From Bacteroidales bacterium (GTDB lineage Bacteria; Bacteroidota; Bacteroidia; Bacteroidales; GWA2-32-17), in the NCBI GenBank assembly GCA_026416095.1, contig JAOAFV010000024.1, positions 1 to 33,752 on the forward strand: a stretch of DNA of 33,752 bases. Direction: 5' to 3'. Under the pieces are notes generated by a model. The model made no database searches and was not told the origin of the DNA. It saw only the letters and a list, made by a program, of their open reading frames with translations. Shown one piece after another: positions 1-9,564 of the stretch. The translations under genes and the position numbers were made by a program. Positions within the stretch are counted from its first letter, which is position 1, and each line of letters opens with the position of its first letter.

Positions 1-316
1 CTTGAGTGTTATATGTGTTTTTTGTTAATTTTTATTATCGTTGTTTTTTGTTTTGCCGCTAACGGTTTGCACTTAATGTAGTGATAAATTTTTAGCCTTA
101 TAAGTTTAATAGAAGAATCGTACTCACAACAAATTAAAACTGTCACATAAAGCACTGAAACCTGATATTTGTCAAGACCGTTGTTATGAGCTACGTTTCT
201 GTTTTTCGTGTCGATTGTCTATTGTCTTTGTGTGTGAGCGTTTATCATCTTTTGCAAACTTGAGTTTAAGTAAAGATTGGGACAATTTGCAAATATGTAT
301 GATTAAATAGGCTGGA
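1..316. other. Intergenic region with imperfect inverted repeat
   Basis: No gene is visible here. The notable content is a long imperfect inverted repeat, listed separately at 50-197. The remainder is AT-rich with T runs and no recognisable promoter or terminator. It lies downstream of the TPR/S1 gene that ends at 317 on the minus strand. Confidence 0.6.
50..197. repeat. Long imperfect inverted repeat, attC-like or MITE-like
   Basis: The left end reads GCCGCTAACGGTTTGCA. The reverse complement of the right end reads GCTCATAACAACGGTCTTG. The two arms therefore share TAAC, ACGGT and TTG blocks, offset by a three-base asymmetry. Further in, the arm CACTTAATGTAGTGATAAAT resembles the opposite arm GTGCTTTATGTGACAGTTTT, so the fold continues. 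Terminal TAAC/GTTA blocks around a long body are reminiscent of attC-like sites and of dispersed intergenic repeats in Bacteroidota. The match to the attC R-box consensus is only partial, so the class is an inference. Confidence 0.5.
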
Positions 317-1873
317 TTATACATTGTCTGCTAATATTAATTGAATTCCTTTTTCTGTTATTCTTTCAACTTTTACGTTAACCTTTTTGCCGCGAGTAAA
401 CACTTCTTTGAAATTATTCTTTAGATTATTTGGTAAACTATTTTTATGCAATAGTCCATCTGACAAGCCTTGTATATGAATAAAGATTCCAAAATCTGTG
501 ACATTTTTAACGATCCCCTCGAAAATCTTTCCTATAAGATTGTTAGAATTAGGTGTAGGTGGTTCTTTTATTATAACGATACACTCGGCAATATTTTTAC
601 CGTCGTACGATTGCATTTTGTAAAACTCAACAGTAGCACCTTTAAGATTTTCTATTGATTTCATTTTATTAACAAAATTTTTTTTGTGGAATTCTATTAC
701 ATCATTGTTTTCATCTTTGATACGCCCAATTTTCCCGTTTTTATGAATTGAAATTATTATACCCTTCGATTTTGGTTTATTACCATATCTCTCTTTTTGC
801 CAAAGTATTTTTGCTTGTTTTATTAGCTCACTGAAGGGTGGTACTTTCGTTTTGTCAATTTTATAAAATGCAAACAACTTGCTGTATTTATCTTTTTCTT
901 TCCATTTTTGTTCTTTCAATATAGCTGCAATAAGTTCTGCTATTATTCTCCCTTCACTTGCTCTGTTGAGTTTATAAAGAATTCGTGACTGTATTAGGTA
1001 TAATTCAATTAAAAAATGCGGTTCATTGCCGTAGAAGGTAGCATCAACAGCATATTTCCATGCTTTTTCAAAATTACCTTGTTTAAGATAAACTTTAGAA
1101 ATCTCCATATATAAAAACCATTTATCGTAACCTTCTTTGCTTTCTAAGAGTTCTTTCAGTAGTTTCTCACTTTTTTCGTAATTGCCAAGGCCATATTCCG
1201 ACAAAGCTATTCTTCGCTTTAACCAAAAGTCATTATTACAATGAAAATTTTTTATAAGAGCAAGACCCTTATTGCAGTACTCAATGCATTTGTCAAATTC
1301 TTTAAGTTTTAGTAGTGCCTTAGTTTTGAGTATAAAATATTTTTCGAGGTCAGATAGTAATTCAACCTTACCTCGTTCTTGGGTATCAATTATTTTTGGT
1401 TTGTCTGATAAAAAGTTGTAATCTAAGCCAGATAAAAGTTCATTAATTTTTCTGGCATTGAATTGATTTTTAGCATGTGCATCACAAAGTTTTAAAATCG
1501 AGATTGTGGTTGGACAGGGAATAGAATTATTTTCTTTTTGGTTTTTTTGTGGTGATATATTTATCAGGTTCTGAATAAATTTTTCATTTGCTATTATTTC
1601 TAACTCGCTCTTTCCTTTTACGCATTTATCAAAAATTAACCACCCATATATGTTTCCTATTATTTTTGTCTTAAATTTTTCAGCAAGCTCATTTGCCCAA
1701 TTTAGATCTGTAAATTTTGCTTCTCTCATTGCTTTAATAGAATAAAAAGCATCCCACTCGTTAAACTCTTGAGGATATGTTTCCCACATCTTTCTATAAA
1801 TTTTTAAAGCCACGTCGGGATTAGTTCCTATTAAATCTCTTGCCTTCGCTTCAAGGTCTCGCTTAGTTTCCAT
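317..1873 (-). CDS. TPR protein with C-terminal cold-shock-like and S1 domains
   Basis: This cytoplasmic protein of about 518 aa has no signal peptide. The middle (about residues 165-345) holds four helix-turn-helix units of TPR type, with patterns such as ALLKLKEFDKCIEYCNKGL and VYLKQGNFEKAWKYAVDA. It is followed by a small beta-rich segment (about 370-435) beginning GIIISIHKNGKIGRIKDENN, which resembles a cold-shock/OB fold. A typical S1 domain (about 445-518) follows, with GIVKNVTDFGIFIHIQGLSD. Two OB-type folds suggest RNA or single-stranded DNA binding, with the TPRs as a protein-contact surface. The ATG at 1873 is preferred over TTG codons immediately upstream. The gene starts 46 bp after the end of the NERD/helicase gene on the same strand, so the two probably form an operon and act together. 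Substrate and process are unknown; a defence or RNA-processing role is an inference from context. Confidence 0.8.
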   Translation of the reverse strand: METKRDLEAKARDLIGTNPDVALKIYRKMWETYPQEFNEWDAFYSIKAMREAKFTDLNWANELAEKFKTKIIGNIYGWLIFDKCVKGKSELEIIANEKFIQNLINISPQKNQKENNSIPCPTTISILKLCDAHAKNQFNARKINELLSGLDYNFLSDKPKIIDTQERGKVELLSDLEKYFILKTKALLKLKEFDKCIEYCNKGLALIKNFHCNNDFWLKRRIALSEYGLGNYEKSEKLLKELLESKEGYDKWFLYMEISKVYLKQGNFEKAWKYAVDATFYGNEPHFLIELYLIQSRILYKLNRASEGRIIAELIAAILKEQKWKEKDKYSKLFAFYKIDKTKVPPFSELIKQAKILWQKERYGNKPKSKGIIISIHKNGKIGRIKDENNDVIEFHKKNFVNKMKSIENLKGATVEFYKMQSYDGKNIAECIVIIKEPPTPNSNNLIGKIFEGIVKNVTDFGIFIHIQGLSDGLLHKNSLPNNLKNNFKEVFTRGKKVNVKVERITEKGIQLILADNV

Positions 1874-1919
1874 CAACAAGCCATTTTTTAAGGTTTTCTC
1901 CTAGATTTTCATAAGATTT

Positions 1920-4883
1920 CTACACTATCTCAATTTTGCTTATAAAACCATTATCTCGATACCATACTCTGAATTTTGTCTTTGATGACTTTGAAACTGC
2001 TATAAATATGTCTTGATTCTTATGGTTTTCAACCATCTGAAGATTATATCCTTTATCGGAAAGTCGTGTTGCCCACTTTTCATATATTTTTCCTCTAAAG
2101 TCAGACGGAAATGGAATGGGATTTATATTTTCTTGTTGGGAAAGAAATAGAGATTCTATACATTCGTTAATTTTGGAATTATCTTCATATTCACTTTTTT
2201 CAATTCTAATCGACGAAACCCCCCAATTATCTTTTGCACCTTTATTACTGATAGCAATAATTAAATGCTTTTTAATGTTAGATGTAATTGAAAAAATTAC
2301 CTTGGTTAGATATTCTCCACTCGGAATGACCAATTCCAATATAAACCCTCTTTGTTCAAGCAGTTTAGCTAATTCACAAATACTTCCTTTAACGTTTTCA
2401 TTTAATGAACCAGGTATCTTTTCTAAGAAACGATTATCAACTTCGTAATCTTTGAAAATCAAAATTGGTTTTTTAGTGTCTGATAACTCAGTATTGTTTG
2501 TTGTAGTATCTTCAAACTGGACATTCATTAATGGATGAATAATTTGGGGGTTAGCAACTAGTAAGGTATTTGATACAGCTGTAACACCCGAGTATAACCA
2601 GCGATAATAATCTGAAGTCGTAATGCATCTGTTTTCACCCTGGTAGGCATTAATAATTGCATTAGCAAAAGTTGAACCAATACATTTGTGAACCGTTATA
2701 GCCCATCCATAAGTTGCATGTACGGCATTTACAAAAGGGTTTGTATTGATAACTTCGGAAAGAATTCTATTCCTATGTATTTTTTTATATTTGTTCTCAA
2801 TTTTTCTTATTTCCCTTTGTTTTTGCTCTAACTTAGTTATAACTTTTTCACCAACCTTGTATTTAGCATCCAAATCTTTTTCTTCTGCAAGCAAGGTCTT
2901 GTATTCTTCATCTTGCGTAAGTTGAATATATTCGTGTGAACTTTCGAAAGGCATTTCTTTTATTTTCTCAGTGAGAAGCATATCTACAAAAACGCGAAGA
3001 GCAATTTGTTCTTCTCTTGAAAGTTTATCATCGTTTTGAAGATAATTATCTAATAACCACACCTTTGCAGTTAATTTGTTTAGAGAGCTAAGGCATTTTA
3101 CCTTAACCTTTGTGAATCTTAATAATATCGGTGTTTTACTTTGTGTTATTGGAATAGTTTTGGAAATAGTTTCATAAACTTCTTCAACTAGGAGGTACAT
3201 ACCATTATACAGCTTTGTTGGTTGTTGAAAGCCAGTTTCATCAGGAATGTTTACGGTGTTATTTACAAGCAATAAGTCGTTCTTTGCTAAATCTTTTCCA
3301 TTCTTAATACAATTTTGTTTTATCCAAAGGTTAATTTTCTTAGCATCCTTGTTTGAAAAAACCATAACTACATTATTTGGCTCAGTGTCAAATGGAGCTG
3401 AAAACCAATCAGCCAAATAGTTCGGAATTTTATCTTCATCAATTTTACATAGGTCGTTAGTTTTCCATGGATACTCAAGGTGATTAAATAAATTCTGTTC
3501 AATTCCAGATGCAAGAATATTTTTTAATCCAAATTTACCATCGAGATTCTCATTAGTTAACATCTGCCTATAATAACTTATTTTACCACTGTATAATTTT
3601 GCTAACGTATTCAGATTAATTGCAGATTCTGTATGCTTACCAAAAGTTAATGAATAAGGGTCGCCAATGCAAATCAGTTTTCTTTTGGTTTTGTTTAGTT
3701 TTAGGAATTTCAGTAAATCTTCTAGCAACCTTCCTGACCCAAATCTCAATAACTCTGATTGATGAAAGCTTCTTGATACCAAATGAGCTTCATGTAAAAT
3801 AATTACAGCGGATTGATCAATCGAATCATCTGAACGAATAGGAATTACTATTTGTAAATGTTCGTCGGGTGTTATATTGTCTTGTTCAGCATCTTCAGTT
3901 TCGAAAGTATTTGGAATATCACCGGGCTGTATATTATCTTGCTCAATATTTTCTGGTTCAAGAGTTTTTAGGTTATTTCCGTAAATGGTACTATATAAGC
4001 TTTGCAGTTCAATTCCCAAGCGTAATGATACTTTTTTCCCAATACGGGCAGAGTAAATCCATGTTTCAATTTGTGGAATATTGAAATTTGAAGCCACTGA
4101 TAAAATATATTGTACCCAATTATCTCTATTCTCACTTGACATTGACTCAAGTACCAAAATACCACTGTCATCAATCTTAAGAAAATTAGAAATTGCTGTT
4201 TCTACATTAGTATCAATCTTAATTTTCTGTTCAGCAAATAATTTTTCTTTCGGAATTTCGATATGTTCTATCCAATCTTCTGCATAGAAAATTTTTGATA
4301 AAGCATCTGCTGCCTCTTTTGTATAGGTATTGTCGCTTGAATAGTCGTAAAGAAATTTTTCTAAGTCGGATTCTTGAGTTATTCTATAAAATGGAATTTC
4401 TTTTGGAATGCTGTTTTCGATAATTAATGGCCCAGAAAATATGTTAAGTATACAAGTTCTGTTTTCTTTAATAAATTTTTTTAATTGAATTTCGGACCGA
4501 ACAATTTCTTTAAATGCTTCACGATAAGAAAAGAGTTGTTTAAATGGGTTTATAAATCTACTTCCGGCTTTTATAACTATTCGCTCTTTGTCATAGGCTG
4601 ATTCTGTGTACCATTGAGTGGTTTCAAATTCATTTTTGTTTTTAGGAAGCTTAATAGTTCCACTATAATCTTTAAAATCGATAATAATTAAGCCGTTGTT
4701 GTAAAGGAGTATTGCATCGGCACGAAAACGAGGGTAATTTTCATTGTAGGGGTTACCAATTAAAAGTCCATTCCAATTTCTTTGTTCAAATAATGTTTTT
4801 AATAAAGACGCAACTCTGCGAAACTGTTCGTTTTCGTGAGTATGGTTTGCTCTGTTATGTTTTACTATTAATGCCATAATCAT
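1920..4883 (-). CDS. NERD nuclease-like domain fused to a degenerate SF1 helicase
   Basis: This 987-aa protein has a NERD-type PD-(D/E)XK core at its N terminus: ADAILLYNNGLIIIDFKDY gives a D near residue 56 and D-F-K near 69-71. A UvrD/RecD-like SF1 helicase body follows. Its motifs can be placed but carry changes. The Walker A site is ESMSSENRDNW (about 245-255), with no GxGK[ST]. Walker B is ILHEAHLVS, with H in place of the first D of DEAH. Motif III-like LICIGDP is present. The VHKCIGSTF segment lacks the usual Q of SQGST, and motif VI SGVTAVSNTLL lacks the usual R. An acidic linker with EQDNI twice (about 313-336) interrupts the body, and about 180 residues after motif VI form a further domain. 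The NERD nuclease may still be active while ATP hydrolysis is probably lost. ATG at 4877 is an alternative start. It lies upstream of the TPR/S1 gene in one transcription unit. Confidence 0.8.
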   Translation of the reverse strand: MIMALIVKHNRANHTHENEQFRRVASLLKTLFEQRNWNGLLIGNPYNENYPRFRADAILLYNNGLIIIDFKDYSGTIKLPKNKNEFETTQWYTESAYDKERIVIKAGSRFINPFKQLFSYREAFKEIVRSEIQLKKFIKENRTCILNIFSGPLIIENSIPKEIPFYRITQESDLEKFLYDYSSDNTYTKEAADALSKIFYAEDWIEHIEIPKEKLFAEQKIKIDTNVETAISNFLKIDDSGILVLESMSSENRDNWVQYILSVASNFNIPQIETWIYSARIGKKVSLRLGIELQSLYSTIYGNNLKTLEPENIEQDNIQPGDIPNTFETEDAEQDNITPDEHLQIVIPIRSDDSIDQSAVIILHEAHLVSRSFHQSELLRFGSGRLLEDLLKFLKLNKTKRKLICIGDPYSLTFGKHTESAINLNTLAKLYSGKISYYRQMLTNENLDGKFGLKNILASGIEQNLFNHLEYPWKTNDLCKIDEDKIPNYLADWFSAPFDTEPNNVVMVFSNKDAKKINLWIKQNCIKNGKDLAKNDLLLVNNTVNIPDETGFQQPTKLYNGMYLLVEEVYETISKTIPITQSKTPILLRFTKVKVKCLSSLNKLTAKVWLLDNYLQNDDKLSREEQIALRVFVDMLLTEKIKEMPFESSHEYIQLTQDEEYKTLLAEEKDLDAKYKVGEKVITKLEQKQREIRKIENKYKKIHRNRILSEVINTNPFVNAVHATYGWAITVHKCIGSTFANAIINAYQGENRCITTSDYYRWLYSGVTAVSNTLLVANPQIIHPLMNVQFEDTTTNNTELSDTKKPILIFKDYEVDNRFLEKIPGSLNENVKGSICELAKLLEQRGFILELVIPSGEYLTKVIFSITSNIKKHLIIAISNKGAKDNWGVSSIRIEKSEYEDNSKINECIESLFLSQQENINPIPFPSDFRGKIYEKWATRLSDKGYNLQMVENHKNQDIFIAVSKSSKTKFRVWYRDNGFISKIEIV

Positions 4884-5283
4884 CTAAGTTAAGTTATTAA
4901 AAATAGACTTTTAGTTTCAGGAGGTGTTGCTTTGTATTTCGAGCAAAACCTAATGTGCCTTTTGTGCAGTTGGCAAAAATTGTTTTTAAAAAAATATACG
5001 TTGAAAAAAAATAAAAACACGGAATCGTTGGCTTTTGAGTAAGATGTTTGATTGTAATTTTGTGCTGTTCCCTTATGTTTATTTTTTTTCGTTCATACTT
5101 TGTTATTGTATTTTAGGTTATCGGTAACATATTTGGTAGTCAGAAGAATAGAAAACTTAGAAACACCAATTTTTAATAACATAAAATGTTTATAATCATT
5201 TGATTTCTTAAATTAATTTTACCCGATTTTGCAATTGTCCAGAGGGAATTGTAGAGAGCGCATTAAGTTTCAAATTACTTAGT
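4884..5283. other. 400-bp gene-free region with repeat-like segment
   Basis: No gene is supported. The stretch 4911-4978, read on the minus strand, encodes a short open stretch containing CTKGTLGFARNTKQ. From memory, this peptide signature is common among spurious proteins predicted from dispersed intergenic repeats of Bacteroidota. The rest is AT-rich, with no clear promoter or terminator. The segment separates the NERD gene from the membrane-anchored protein gene, so these are probably not one operon. Confidence 0.45.
4911..4978 (-). repeat. Fragment resembling a dispersed Bacteroidota intergenic repeat
   Basis: On the minus strand the segment translates around CTKGTLGFARNTKQ and then stops shortly after. 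It has no start codon or ribosome-binding context of its own. The resemblance to repeat-derived spurious ORFs is recalled knowledge and was not searched. With the inverted repeat at 50-197 it brackets the two-gene NERD/TPR unit. Confidence 0.35.
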
Positions 5284-6021
5284 TTAGCATAATTCAAAAC
5301 CCTTTGGTGCTTTGTTACTATTTTTTTTGTTGTATGGACAAATATAAATAATGGCTATTTCTTTTCCATTCTCATAAATTCTGTAAGCATCGATCAAGTG
5401 TTTTATATTTGGTGCCCTCATGCTTCCTATTCTCTTGTAGGTTATTTTAGAACCATTTTTCGTTCTTAACCTATTTAAATAAAAATAGCTATCAGGTATC
5501 GATCTTGTTGGAATGGGGTTAGTTATCTCTAAACCAAATTCACCAAAACCTTCAGGCATTTCATCTTTATCTGTTCCTTCTGGATTTGCTGTTTTAGAAA
5601 ATTCTCGTGCTACTTCAACAAGATTTTTAAATATTTTTGCATTTTCATTTTTAGAAATAAGATAATTATAAAATTGGCTTAGTGTATTATCATCAAAGTG
5701 GTTTAATGCATAAGGTGCTAGGTGTTTTTTTAATCGCTCCTCGCTAAAATAATTACCTAATATAGTAGTCAAATAACAAATGCATGAAGACCTGACGAAA
5801 ATATTTTGAGCTGTTTTTTCATCAATTTTATAATTCAATATACGAAGAAGTTCTTTTGTGCCTTCGTCAATATCTTTTTGTCCATTTGGAAAAATTTCTT
5901 TGATGAATTTTCCTAACAAATTATTAAAATCACTATCATTGTGCTTTTGCCTTTCATTATTTACTGCCATTATAGTTAAAACAATAACTATAATGCCTAC
6001 AATACTTAAAACTGCAATCAT
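5284..6021 (-). CDS. Membrane-anchored protein of unknown function
   Basis: This 245-aa protein begins with a single hydrophobic segment (residues 2-20, AVLSIVGIIVIVLTIMAV) followed by charged residues, consistent with an N-terminal membrane anchor. The middle is mostly helical. The C-terminal part has a well-defined conserved-looking block with GFGEFGLEITNPIPT, YLNRLRTKNG, GSMRAPNIKHLIDAYRIY and CPYNKKNSNKAPKGF. I recall similar C-terminal blocks in uncharacterised bacterial proteins but know no function. It is on the same strand as the NERD/TPR pair but 400 bp upstream of it, so a functional link is unproven. The ATG start is clean and no frameshift is seen. Confidence 0.75.
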   Translation of the reverse strand: MIAVLSIVGIIVIVLTIMAVNNERQKHNDSDFNNLLGKFIKEIFPNGQKDIDEGTKELLRILNYKIDEKTAQNIFVRSSCICYLTTILGNYFSEERLKKHLAPYALNHFDDNTLSQFYNYLISKNENAKIFKNLVEVAREFSKTANPEGTDKDEMPEGFGEFGLEITNPIPTRSIPDSYFYLNRLRTKNGSKITYKRIGSMRAPNIKHLIDAYRIYENGKEIAIIYICPYNKKNSNKAPKGFELC

Positions 6022-7174
6022 AATACTTCAAGTTTTATTTTTTATTTTGGTATTCATCTACAATTTGTTTATATCATTATCATAAGCAATCTTATGCAAC
6101 TTTACTTTAAAGCATATAATCATTCTTACTGTTAAGATATATAAATTTTTACCAAATTTACATTAATTTTTTTAAATTACCAAATTAAATTTTTTGATTT
6201 ACTTATTACTTACAATTACTTATAAACCACTTATAAGTTAGCTTTTCTTTTTGGGAAATATTACTATTAAGTTGTGTAATTATAAAGTTAGGTTAACCAA
6301 TTACTAGTTAAATTTTTTATAAAATAAGAGAATAAGGTACTTGCAAAGCTACTAAAAATAATTTTTTTGCTAATAAACATGATTAATAATTTTAATTTTC
6401 TACAATTAAATTCAAAGAATCTTGCATAATTTTTTTAATTTTTTAATAACAAAAATTATTTAAATACCTCAATCTTGATCTATTTTTAATTAATAGTTAC
6501 ACTGTTAATACACTATTCACTACGACACTTCAACACGACGTAAACCTTGTTTCAGGTTGTAACATATAGCCAACAACACAAGCCTTGGCATGTACTTTTT
6601 ACTATTCCTTTATACTTAGCAGCTTGACCATTAAACCATCTTTTGTAAATAACTAAATGTTGTCTCTACTATTTTATACTCTTCAAGTAGTTTACTGTGT
6701 TGACGTTACCATTATGTAAGTTCACGATTTACTAAATATCTTTTCCATAATTTCGTTAGTTATACTTTCTTTTCGCAATAACTTATTACTTTTGGCTGTC
6801 TTAAAGACTTGTTTACTATAAACACCGCCTATCTTTGCCTTGACAATACTCTTAACTAGTTTTCTTATATACAACTGTCGTGTGCATTTTGGGTGCTTGT
6901 CACAACAGTATCTACTAATTCTTTCTTATCTACCGAAAAGGCTTTCTTATGTGCCTGATTCAAAAAAATCATTAAGTATGATTCTCTAAAATAAAAAAAT
7001 TATTTGTTTTTCCTGTTATATTGTAAAGTTGTAGAAAATACTATTTATAGTGAAAAAATTAGTTTAAGAAATATTTTTTTAATTTTATATTTAATTCATT
7101 CTCTAAAATTTTTGAAGAGATATTACTTCTAAAATTTTAAGATTTTAATAATAACCGATGAAAAAATTAAGCTT
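6022..7174. other. 1.15-kb gap containing an IS relic
   Basis: No intact gene is present. About 6333-7031 is a decayed transposase gene with degenerate ends, listed separately. The 6022-6330 part is AT-rich and holds a few TTACTTA-type short repeats (about 6195-6240) without regular spacing. The 7032-7174 part is AT-rich and resembles sequence after the second relic (around 33240-33283). Confidence 0.7.
6333..7031 (-). pseudogene. Decayed IS5/IS1182-like transposase relic (copy 1)
   Basis: Reading the minus strand in shifting frames recovers pieces of a DDE transposase. They are VDTVVTSTQNAHDS (compare the VTxANVHDS block), GVYSKQVFKTAKSNKLLRKE, RWFNGQAAKYKGIVK and, at the C-terminal end, LAICYNLKQGLRRVEV. 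Several stops and frame changes interrupt them, and the N-terminal half is missing, so the gene is dead. The outer edges (GTACTTGCAAAGCTACT at about 6338-6354 and TTGTAAAGTT at 7021-7030) look like decayed forms of the ACCTTTGCAA ends seen in copy 2 at 32822. Family assignment rests on motif resemblance only. Confidence 0.65.
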
Positions 7175-8098
7175 TTATTCAAAAGGGTGTTCTTTCTGGA
7201 ACGAGGGTCTATAATGTTTATGGCTATCGTACTCTTGTATCCATCCATTTTCAAAATTTAACATTTCTAAATGCTCAAGCACTTTATTGTATTCAGTACT
7301 GTTTAAGTTCCTATTTAAAGTAGGAGGTAATCCTGGTTGAGGTGGATAATATTGCGACATAAGAGAAATATAAATTTTATTACTAATTTCACTAGCAATA
7401 ATATCTAAAACTTTCAAGCTATTTTCGACATGATTTGGTAGAACGAGGTGTCGAACTATTAAGCCCGAAATAATTTCGTTGTCGTCGTCTAAAATAATAT
7501 TACTGCCTTTTTGACGATACATTTCTTTTATTGCAGATGTGGCGGTTGCAGTATAATTATGAACCTTTGAGTATGTGTAAGCTAACTCATTATCGGAATA
7601 TTTAAAATCGGGTAAGTAAACATCAAATATAATTTTCGAGCATTTTTATTGTTTCTGCTTTATCGTATCCATTAGAATTCCAGATAAACACAGGAGAATA
7701 TCCTTTTTGTTTTAAAGTTTCAATTATATCAATAACTTGAGCAAGCATGTGAGAAGGTGAAACGAAGCCAACTTTATTTACACCTTGATTTAGATGATAT
7801 ATTACTTTCTCCACTACTTGGTTAGTTGTAAGTATTTTTTCGATAGGGTTTTTGTTATTGCTAATTTCATAGTTTTGACAATATGAGCATTGCATGTTAC
7901 AATGTGAGAAAAAAATATTACAAACAGATTTTTTGTCACTAATAACCGGTTCTTCTCCTTTGTGCACACAGATTGAAGAAATATGTTGTTCGACTCCACA
8001 ATTACCCCCCCTTTTCTTCACTAAACCTTTTGACATTACAGTTACGAGGGCAACAATTGCAAAACCGAATACAAGCTTTTATATACGTCTAAGCACAT
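7175..8098 (-). pseudogene. Radical SAM protein (PflA-like) gene with three frameshifts
   Basis: The intact protein would be a radical SAM enzyme of the pyruvate-formate-lyase-activase-like group, using a 4Fe-4S cluster and SAM; the motif CNMQCSYCQNYEIS gives the CxxxCxxC site. The frame is broken three times, each fixed by removing one base from a homopolymer: A4 at 8061-8064, C7 at 8005-8011 and A3 at 7625-7627. Corrected, the N terminus reads MCLDVYKSLYSVCNCCPRNC, then RFSEEKGGNCGVEQH. Past the last break it reads LENYIDVYLPDFKYSDNELA, as expected for the family, and continues to the stop at 7175. The restored ATG at 8098 lies 2 bp after the stop of the glutamine synthetase gene, so they formed an operon. 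It is either a recent pseudogene or a cluster of assembly errors; no other gene here shows such breaks. Confidence 0.8.
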
Positions 8099-8100
8099 CG

Positions 8101-9564
8101 TTAATTATAGTGAAGAAATTCTTCTACTATTGAAGATAGATTTATTTCGTTATTTAGTATCATTTTTCTGAAATTTTGGTCATTATATGATTTTAATTTT
8201 GTGATTATTGAATTTATAAGTCCTTCAGGAAATATATTATCTACTTCGAAAATTTTACGTTTTTTTTCAAGTGCTATTGCAGCTTCATAACAAGAATAAG
8301 GGAGAGATATAAGTTCTGTATTACGTATAGTATCGGGATTACCTTTAATGTAAAGGCTATTGGCAAACTCAATTGCATTTTGCATTGTAAAGCCATAGGC
8401 AATTGCAATCATAATAGCAGATATAATATGATATATATCTGAAGTACCATCGGCACCCCTATATTCAATTGTTTGATGAATAGAAGGAATAAAATCTTGG
8501 TTATTAATACCATTAACTTCTGCTACCATATCTTTGCTTGAACACCAACCTAAAGGAATACGAATAAGTGCTGTTCTGTTGCTTTCGCCCCAACATATTC
8601 TTGTAGGGGCTTCCTGGTCAGGCATTAGTCTTAAATAAGATAAAGGAATAGTGTTGCCAAAAGCACATAAAGCATCAGCATTATATAAAATGCCAGCTAT
8701 TGCTTTTTTGGCATTATCGTTTAGTTCGTTATTACTTATAATTACATTTTTACCATTTTCTTCTAGATAAAAATGGAAGTGTAAGCCACTACCAGCTTTA
8801 TCGATAGTTATTTTAGGAGCAAAACTTATAATTATATTTTCTCTAAAAGCCAATTCGCGGAGTATCCACTTTGAAATTATCAAATTTAGTGCAGCAACTT
8901 CGGCATATTCGGGCAAAAATTCTATTTCGTGCTGTTCATAAAGCTTATTATCATATACAAAACAACCAACTTCGCTATGTCCATATTTTATTTTTCCACC
9001 ACATTCGCATATCAACTTCATTGCTTTTTTCCGAAATTCATTAAACTTAATAAAAGGTGAAGTTTCGTGATAACCTTTTTTATTAACTATTTCGTATTTT
9101 TCAATGCGTGGTGCTACTATATAGAATTCAAGCTCACCTAAAATTTTAATGTCGTAGCCTGTTATTTTTTTTAAATGATATTTTGCTTTTTTTATAATTT
9201 GATCGGGCGAACTCTTTAATGGTTCGTAATTTTTATCGTATAGAGTGCAAATAATATCTACAGCGGGTATTTCCGAAAAAGGGTTTACAAAAGCAGTGTG
9301 GTAAATTGGAATGACATACAAATCGCTTGAAGTACTATCGATATATTTAAAAATACTTGAGCCATCTATTCTTTCGCCATAGGTTAAAATTTTGCGAAGA
9401 TATTCTCTTGAATGAAGATAAAAATTTAATGTTTTCAAATGCCCATCGTCAGCTATGTAGCGAAAGTTTAAAAATTCAATGTTATTTTCAACTATGAATT
9501 TTTCTAAATCTTTTGCTGTGAAAAGTACTGGTTCTTTTTGTAGGTAATTGGCAATTCTGTTCAT
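8101..9564 (-). CDS. Glutamine synthetase family protein
   Basis: This cytoplasmic enzyme of about 487 aa would join glutamate and ammonia using ATP, or ligate a related amine. An N-terminal beta-grasp-like region is followed by the catalytic barrel. Visible motifs are GELEFYIVAP (metal-binding Glu), GSGLHFHFYLEENGKN (compare GSGMHxHxS), NRTALIRIP (compare NRSAxIRIP) and IEYRGADGTSDIY (compare ExRxxDxxANPY). The departures from the canonical forms mean substrate specificity is uncertain. The ATG at 9564 is chosen; the upstream TTG at 9579 lies inside the -7 promoter element TATATTTG. A textbook promoter sits just upstream (TTTG, 20-bp spacer, TATATTTG), giving a leader of only about 9 nt. The broken radical SAM gene follows after 2 bp. 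Confidence 0.85.
   Translation of the reverse strand: MNRIANYLQKEPVLFTAKDLEKFIVENNIEFLNFRYIADDGHLKTLNFYLHSREYLRKILTYGERIDGSSIFKYIDSTSSDLYVIPIYHTAFVNPFSEIPAVDIICTLYDKNYEPLKSSPDQIIKKAKYHLKKITGYDIKILGELEFYIVAPRIEKYEIVNKKGYHETSPFIKFNEFRKKAMKLICECGGKIKYGHSEVGCFVYDNKLYEQHEIEFLPEYAEVAALNLIISKWILRELAFRENIIISFAPKITIDKAGSGLHFHFYLEENGKNVIISNNELNDNAKKAIAGILYNADALCAFGNTIPLSYLRLMPDQEAPTRICWGESNRTALIRIPLGWCSSKDMVAEVNGINNQDFIPSIHQTIEYRGADGTSDIYHIISAIMIAIAYGFTMQNAIEFANSLYIKGNPDTIRNTELISLPYSCYEAAIALEKKRKIFEVDNIFPEGLINSIITKLKSYNDQNFRKMILNNEINLSSIVEEFLHYN

Follow-up and report, generated by a model that had tools for sequence, protein, structure and literature searches.

The locus at the start of this contig raises the question of what is done by a NERD nuclease fused to a helicase fold and encoded beside a TPR protein with two OB domains, and whether such a pair belongs to a system that already has a name. 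A preliminary description of the window, by which we mean the whole stretch of 33,752 nucleotides analysed here, had proposed a two-gene unit of a NERD-helicase and a TPR/cold-shock/S1 protein with a 46-bp gap between the genes. This layout is confirmed: both genes are intact, NERD, S1, PDLC01170 and PDC-M16A matches were obtained together with a Dda-like fold, and the gap is reproduced when the partner gene is read from the ATG at 1873, its likely start. The features of the pair, by position in the window, are as follows.

1920-4883, minus strand: effector, a NERD, SF1-helicase-fold and TBP-like protein (TOTE effector; PADLOC PDC-M16A), 987 aa, intact.
4500-4820, minus strand: NERD nuclease domain of the effector (Pfam, aa 22-128, E 5.6e-6, above the Pfam cut-off).
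4113-4160, minus strand: former Walker A of the effector (aa 242-257), ILVLESMSSENRDNWV, without GK[ST].
3777-3812, minus strand: former Walker B of the effector (aa 358-369), with LHEAH in place of the VDE[SA][HQ] of intact relatives.
2559-2609, minus strand: former motif VI of the effector (aa 759-775), without the arginine, GVTAVS versus GLIRAR in the relative L118.
1923-2399, minus strand: divergent TBP-like region of the effector (aa ~829-987), from hhalign and the repeats in the model.
317-1879, minus strand: partner, a TPR-CSD-S1 protein, 520 aa from a TTG, intact.
785-1867, minus strand: TPR superhelix of the partner (aa ~5-365), from the AlphaFold model and TPR matches.
566-772, minus strand: first, cold-shock-like OB domain of the partner (aa 370-438), from the PADLOC match and the model.
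347-535, minus strand: second OB domain of the partner, S1 (aa 449-511, Pfam S1 E 3.4e-11, above the cut-off).

Eight PADLOC PDC-M16A models match the effector (best E 4.9e-59), which retains the putative catalytic residues E17, D56, D69 and K71 of NERD, E17 sitting just N-terminal of the Pfam NERD match. Its AlphaFold model (mean pLDDT 79) supports a helicase fold, the core of which has T4 Dda as its top structural match (Foldseek E 2.7e-18; VIA Z 23.6, rmsd 4.5, 412 residues), while the features by which an active SF1 enzyme is recognized, Walker A, Walker B and the motif VI arginine, are absent. Pfam TBP-TOTE gives no match to its C-terminus, which is modelled as helix-strand repeats; the TBP-like assignment comes from comparing the C-termini of the branch to which the window effector belongs with those of its ATPase-intact relatives (hhalign E 1.8e-8, a single-comparison E-value), all 12 off-diagonal control comparisons lying at E 0.05 or worse. 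Residues 7-432 of the partner, its TPR-cold-shock part, match PADLOC PDLC01170 (E 2.9e-44), and its model (mean pLDDT 90) presents a TPR superhelix with a CSD-like OB, S1 protein chains appearing among the structural matches. None of the TOTE-named OB models of Pfam matches the window partner at E up to 1, and Pfam DUF7017 reaches E 0.084 only. No modified-base reader domain was found in either window protein.

Searching the genome collection with a helicase alignment yielded 42 loci distributed over many phyla. The partner types counted at these relatives were TPR-CSD, identified with a profile built from seven proteins and with those of L118 and L120 also counted, and PDC-M16B; four loci with no more than 300 nt of sequence beyond the helicase gene (L121, L129, L148 and L153) were left out. 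A partner gene lies directly downstream in 37 of the 38 evaluable loci, with a gap of -89 to +245 nt, and just upstream of the helicase in none of the 32 loci having an ORF there; the sole exception, L158, has only an N-terminal part in common with the helicase relatives. Conserved adjacency across genomes, the check that had been set beforehand, is therefore borne out. For alignments, the 38-helicase set took in the window, L109 and all but six of the 42 loci (those left out being L129, L148, L153, L154, L157 and L158), and the 36-helicase set used with Pfam was the same minus L138 and L109. The 33-partner set comprised the window and 32 loci, leaving out those with no single complete partner frame or with near-identical ones (ten loci: L121, L129, L136-L139, L148, L153, L154 and L158).

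The occurrence of the pair is sporadic. The TPR-CSD family is present in 6 of 395 genomes of the phylum, and in five of these six, the window's genome included, a PDC-M16A match adjoins it; the sixth, G399, has TPR-CSD genes (L102 and L103) that both lack an adjoining PDC-M16A helicase. A search of the 98 other nearest genomes turned up no full-length helicase relative. Several helicase relatives in other phyla are 61-72% identical to a Pedobacter protein, although these come mostly from MAGs, for which misbinning is possible. No helicase relatives were found in phages or in two viral-contig scans and no partner relatives in plasmids, while distant helicase matches were seen in 5 plasmid records in one search and 62 in another. 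The plasmid helicases looked at (3 of 5 examined) are ATPase-intact, have N-termini that fail to align with the conserved NERD residues, and are each followed by a PDC-M16B-like partner. Cargo of a phage or plasmid was rejected on the lack of phage and viral-contig helicase relatives and of plasmid partners, and on the distance of the plasmid helicase matches. A housekeeping RecD/Pif1-like helicase was likewise rejected, since another gene of this genome encodes its homologue, of 469 aa, and the 98 near genomes give partial matches only. The window helicase gene is accessory. The adjacency in 37 of 38 loci, the lack of a full-length relative in the near genomes and the position of relatives in BREX operons or behind a type ISP gene support the setting anticipated in the preliminary description, with two genes conserved as a unit and lying in accessory DNA.

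In the window itself, upstream of the pair, lies a 245-aa ORF and then mostly metabolic or cell-envelope genes, and, as the window opens at contig base 1, the known sequence 3' of the partner gene amounts to 316 nt. There are 29 window ORFs of at least 80 aa, of which 19 were scanned with Pfam and 23 compared with BREX, type ISP and methyltransferase proteins; no BREX-like (PglX, PglZ), type ISP-like or matching type IIG-like gene was found among the 23. One 137-aa ORF (7623-8036) matches the first part of the Radical_SAM profile. An IS relic and repeats had been placed beside the locus, a reading we reject because there is no transposase among the 19 ORFs scanned and the repeats in bases 1-9000 are imperfect AT-rich pairs. 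Elsewhere in the window's genome there is one PglZ-domain protein, of 530 aa and on another contig, whose size, we assume, fits a T9SS regulator. On contig C35 (G000:C35; L195:9185-12817) a gene near the contig end, with no BREX matches around it, encodes 1,210 aa, and its product matches an Eco57I-type methyltransferase and may be a restriction enzyme of a type IIG-like kind; a second methyltransferase family gave two hits in this genome, one of which is the same protein. BREX in the window's own genome was rejected on these two grounds, the lone 530-aa PglZ-domain protein and a C35 methyltransferase protein that has no BREX surroundings.

The available part of PMC12458937 gives TOTE as TPR, OB, TBP, Effector and credits it to Aravind et al. 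2022. Among the relatives of the window effector Pfam detects NERD in 36 of 36 and TBP-TOTE in 30 of 36, and among the 33 partners DUF7017 in 24 and S1CSD-TOTE-1 and S1CSD-TOTE-2 in 11 each. The window pair itself has a TPR subunit, OB (CSD/S1) domains on the TPR protein and a predicted effector enzyme in the same operon, together with a TBP-like domain that is present by profile-profile comparison only; with respect to PDC-M16, the PDC-M16A protein is present and the PDC-M16B partner absent. Since relatives carry Pfam TOTE domains, the TBP profile of the branch matches and the architecture is that of PMC12458937 in the part available, the window pair is, judged from its sequence, a divergent TOTE conflict system and close to PADLOC PDC-M16. 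It thus belongs to a kind already named, and the earlier view of the pair as undescribed has to be given up, the more so as PADLOC holds related pairs as PDC-M16. The pair is a predicted virus-defence unit, as TOTE systems are predicted ones: no experimental test of any TOTE system was found in the literature searched.

What sets the window effector apart is the state of its ATPase. Five of the 38 aligned helicases (window, L149, L150, L151 and L159) have neither GK[ST] in Walker A nor [DE]E in Walker B nor the arginine of motif VI, and 32 of the other 33 keep all three, the exception being L155. The Walker A region reads ILVLESMSSENRDNWV in the window versus VFILQGTSLSGKTHLI in L118, and the Walker B acidic pair is replaced in these five by HE, YD or PE. 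A profile search of 397 genomes from the family of L151 added two further members, G724, whose helicase is 60% identical to the window's, and G856; all three motifs are missing in both, hence in seven of seven members. The third hit of that search, G744, is closer to the ATPase-intact type, and a search of 399 genomes from the family of L149 matched only the L149 and L150 genomes. The branch thus has seven intact members, the window, L149, L150, L151, L159, G724 and G856, with hosts that include Phocaeicola (L149), Bacteroides (L150), Haloflavibacter (L151) and a Bacteroidia MAG (L159). Their frames measure 977-997 aa and most pairs are 35-42% identical, L149 and L150 being near-identical; they have in common a P-loop replacement, S[MI]xxxxRDxW, with the SF1 fold and motif V (TVHKxxG) also well preserved. 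In an unrooted tree, in which long branches near L155 were flagged, the five first-known members are separated from the other helicases by a branch with support 100/100. The distant L155 has GKR at Walker A (no threonine), DA at Walker B (no glutamate) and no motif VI arginine. The motif III glutamine was dropped as a marker of loss because the intact relatives L109 and L143-L146 are also without it. Conversely the NERD residues E, D and D-x-K are retained in all 38 aligned helicases and in G724 and G856, so throughout the branch. Between L151 and L159, dN/dS (NG86) is 0.079/1.23 for NERD, 0.204/2.0 for the TBP part, 0.103/1.77 for the RecA1 region and 0.112/1.35 for the RecA2 region; the ATPase-less helicase core therefore shows signs of purifying selection and appears about as constrained as the nuclease, in one estimate from one pair with dS near saturation. 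In the literature searched the ATPase-less branch, its methylation-operon context and the cassette exchange set out below were not found; the founding TOTE review of 2022 may already cover NERD or inactive-helicase forms.

The partner appears to follow a history of its own. The helicases of L119 and L123 are 90-91% identical to that of L124 (91% for L123), while their partners are only 25-26% identical to L124's (26% for the L123 TPR protein); the same partners are 58-64% identical to the window's (58% for L123), whose helicase is 26% identical to theirs. At the DNA level L123 is a mosaic: almost its entire helicase gene is 88% identical to that of L124, its TPR-CSD stretch is 70% identical to the window's and its last OB domain 80% identical to L124's, one 172-nt piece of the TPR stretch also being 70% identical to L124. 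These alignments indicate that the TPR-CSD part has been exchanged as a cassette, a TPR-CSD of the window type having been joined to the helicase and OB tail of another branch. As the L119 and L123 partners are 96% identical, the two chimeras probably stem from one exchange. The chimeric partner of L119 (L119:8862-10442) has an in-frame stop between CSD and tail, and its counterpart in L123 is intact. An S1-like tail is found in all five TPR-CSD partners of ATPase-less helicases compared (by Pfam in the window, BLAST in L151 and L159, alignment in G724 and G856), while the ATPase-intact helicases of L119 and L123 go with partners that carry a second CSD in its place; on this comparison the OB tail goes with the helicase type in the chimeras. 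The partner of L149 and L150 is of the PDC-M16B type, and a single clade of the partners of ATPase-less helicases gives p-AU 0.106. L151 and L159 have helicases that are 80% identical and partners that are 37% identical, which may reflect exchange or fast evolution. The proposal of the preliminary description that the partner senses a substrate gains from the exchange, its trigger being a matter of prediction.

Four branch members lie in or behind methylation-based defence operons: L151, L159 and G856 between pglX and pglZ of BREX, and G724 behind a type ISP gene. The operons of L151 and L159 have the gene content of type 1 BREX in the order brxA, brxB, brxC, a HEC-06/Orf5-like gene, pglX, effector, TPR partner, pglZ and brxL, brxB and brxC of the L159 genome having been called by similarity to those of the L151 genome. 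The HEC-06/Orf5-like gene of these two operons, which we take to be GmrSD-like, also matches SspE and enzymes of type IV, more weakly. In the BREX operon of G856 (L187/L189) two tandem pglX-like genes stand upstream of the TOTE pair and no gene lies between brxC and pglX. The G724 pair follows a 1677-aa gene that matches LlaBIII, of type ISP restriction-modification, over nearly its full length, one 111-aa ORF lying between. The distant L155 has a pglX half on one side and pglZ on the other, along with brxC and brxL. In the same Gammaproteobacteria MAG (L155:1094-4147; L175/L176) a defence reverse-transcriptase gene of the UG5-nitrilase type (E 0) lies between two PglX-half genes, which cover 1-600 and 624-1171 of the profile and adjoin the TOTE pair, pglZ and brxL. 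On the Shewanella plasmid pSX1_LC6 (L178:5554-15489) an ATPase-intact PDC-M16-like pair and hrgA stand between annotated hsdS and hsdR, and at L149 an AbiEii-like gene precedes the pair. The 116 flanking ORFs of 34 loci matched 235 PADLOC families at 1e-10, a count made with no control set and not an enrichment; as there is no background rate, enrichment is not claimed, and the evidence from context is that of shared operons. Such positions point to a second defensive layer alongside methylation-based restriction.

We consider it probable, if some way from certain, that we are dealing with a divergent TOTE system from the ATPase-less branch and that it works as a motor-less nuclease gated by an exchangeable TPR-OB sensor, with a predicted activity, trigger and anti-phage effect. 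The TPR-CSD part would recognize an infection signal, be it phage RNA, ssDNA or protein, while the OB tail and the TBP/pseudo-helicase parts would hold nucleic acid; binding of the signal would release the NERD nuclease and DNA would be cut without ATP-driven unwinding. The small number of intact branch members (seven, two of them near-identical), a window TBP region and OB domains that escape the TOTE-named Pfam models, the lack of a BREX neighbour at the window pair, the broken copies among relatives and the occurrence of TPR-CSD without the helicase (G399) count against this reading. A further, tentative and rather doubtful proposal is that the ATPase-free effector is a guest of methylation-based defence, in which the host operon (BREX or type ISP) would detect or power, the pair would add a nuclease, and the TPR-CSD would be traded between distant effectors like a specificity subunit, the OB tail staying with its own helicase type; such a guest role fits with the loss of ATPase residues also in the BREX-embedded L155 of a distant branch.

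The preserved motif V and SF1 fold, and a core that appears constrained, could also be taken to mean that the helicase still binds or hydrolyses ATP through unusual motifs and that the pair is an ordinary ATP-driven TOTE helicase-nuclease. In seven of seven members, however, the lysine and threonine/serine of Walker A, the acidic pair of Walker B and the arginine of motif VI are absent, which makes this quite unlikely. That the loss of the ATPase is the first step of gene death, in a decaying system, would agree with the broken copies among the relatives (helicases in L154 and L157, partners in L119 and L137/L138), of which the L157 helicase is nearest to the ATPase-less branch; we regard it as very improbable in the face of seven intact frames of such divergence, their common P-loop replacement and the low dN/dS of the one pair measured.

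CSD and S1 domains commonly bind RNA, and with S1 chains among the structural matches of the partner the pair might serve the normal physiology of the cell (repair, stress or translation), handling RNA or DNA there, rather than its defence. Such a role appears unlikely for genes that occur so sporadically, in 6 of 395 phylum genomes for the TPR-CSD and in none of the 98 near genomes for the full-length helicase, whose relatives are found inside BREX operons and next to a type ISP gene, and which turn up in different phyla, mostly in MAGs, with 61-72% identity. Operons shared with methyltransferase systems, and the SspE and type IV matches of the HEC-06/Orf5-like gene in two of them, would suit a type IV-like enzyme directed against modified phage DNA, complementing host methylation, with the TPR-OB partner reading the modification; with no modified-base reader domain in either window protein and no methyltransferase-system neighbour at the window copy, we hold this also to be improbable. 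For the motor-less, sensor-gated nuclease that we favour, the loss of the motor with retention of the nuclease asks whether the helicase fold acts as a clamp or as a sensor. The natural chimeras delimit the start and end of the exchangeable cassette, and the nesting in BREX links the predicted TOTE systems to a well-studied one that is tractable in the laboratory.

The SF1 fold of the window effector is common to Dda (VIA Z 23.6), RecD2 and Pif1, from which it differs in lacking the ATPase motifs and in having NERD and TBP-like parts. Schlafen SLFN11 and SLFN14, which are among the structural matches, also combine a nuclease with an SF1-type core, a likeness in way of working only; their nuclease fold differs from NERD. 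From PADLOC PDC-M16, eight PDC-M16A models of which match the window effector, the pair differs in its partner, which matches PDLC01170 'TPR' only and not PDC-M16B. TALON, as set out in the available part of PMC12458937, has the NERD nuclease, TPR-CSD and TBP in common with the window pair but a YprA-like helicase where the window pair joins NERD to an SF1 fold; the 19 window ORFs scanned include no DEAD/YprA helicase, on a contig that stops 316 nt downstream of the pair. Many nucleases are nested in BREX according to the available part of PMC12839542, where NERD or other nucleases are proposed as backup effectors, although the PglW treated there is a kinase protein; in the main text of that source the words TOTE, TPR and TBP do not occur. 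TOTE itself has TPR, OB, TBP-like and effector parts as a fixed gene pair in common with the window pair, and its Pfam domains are matched by the relatives of that pair, while the S1 domain that forms the second OB of the partner, the TBP region below Pfam detection and the ATPase-less helicase fold of the branch distinguish it from other members.
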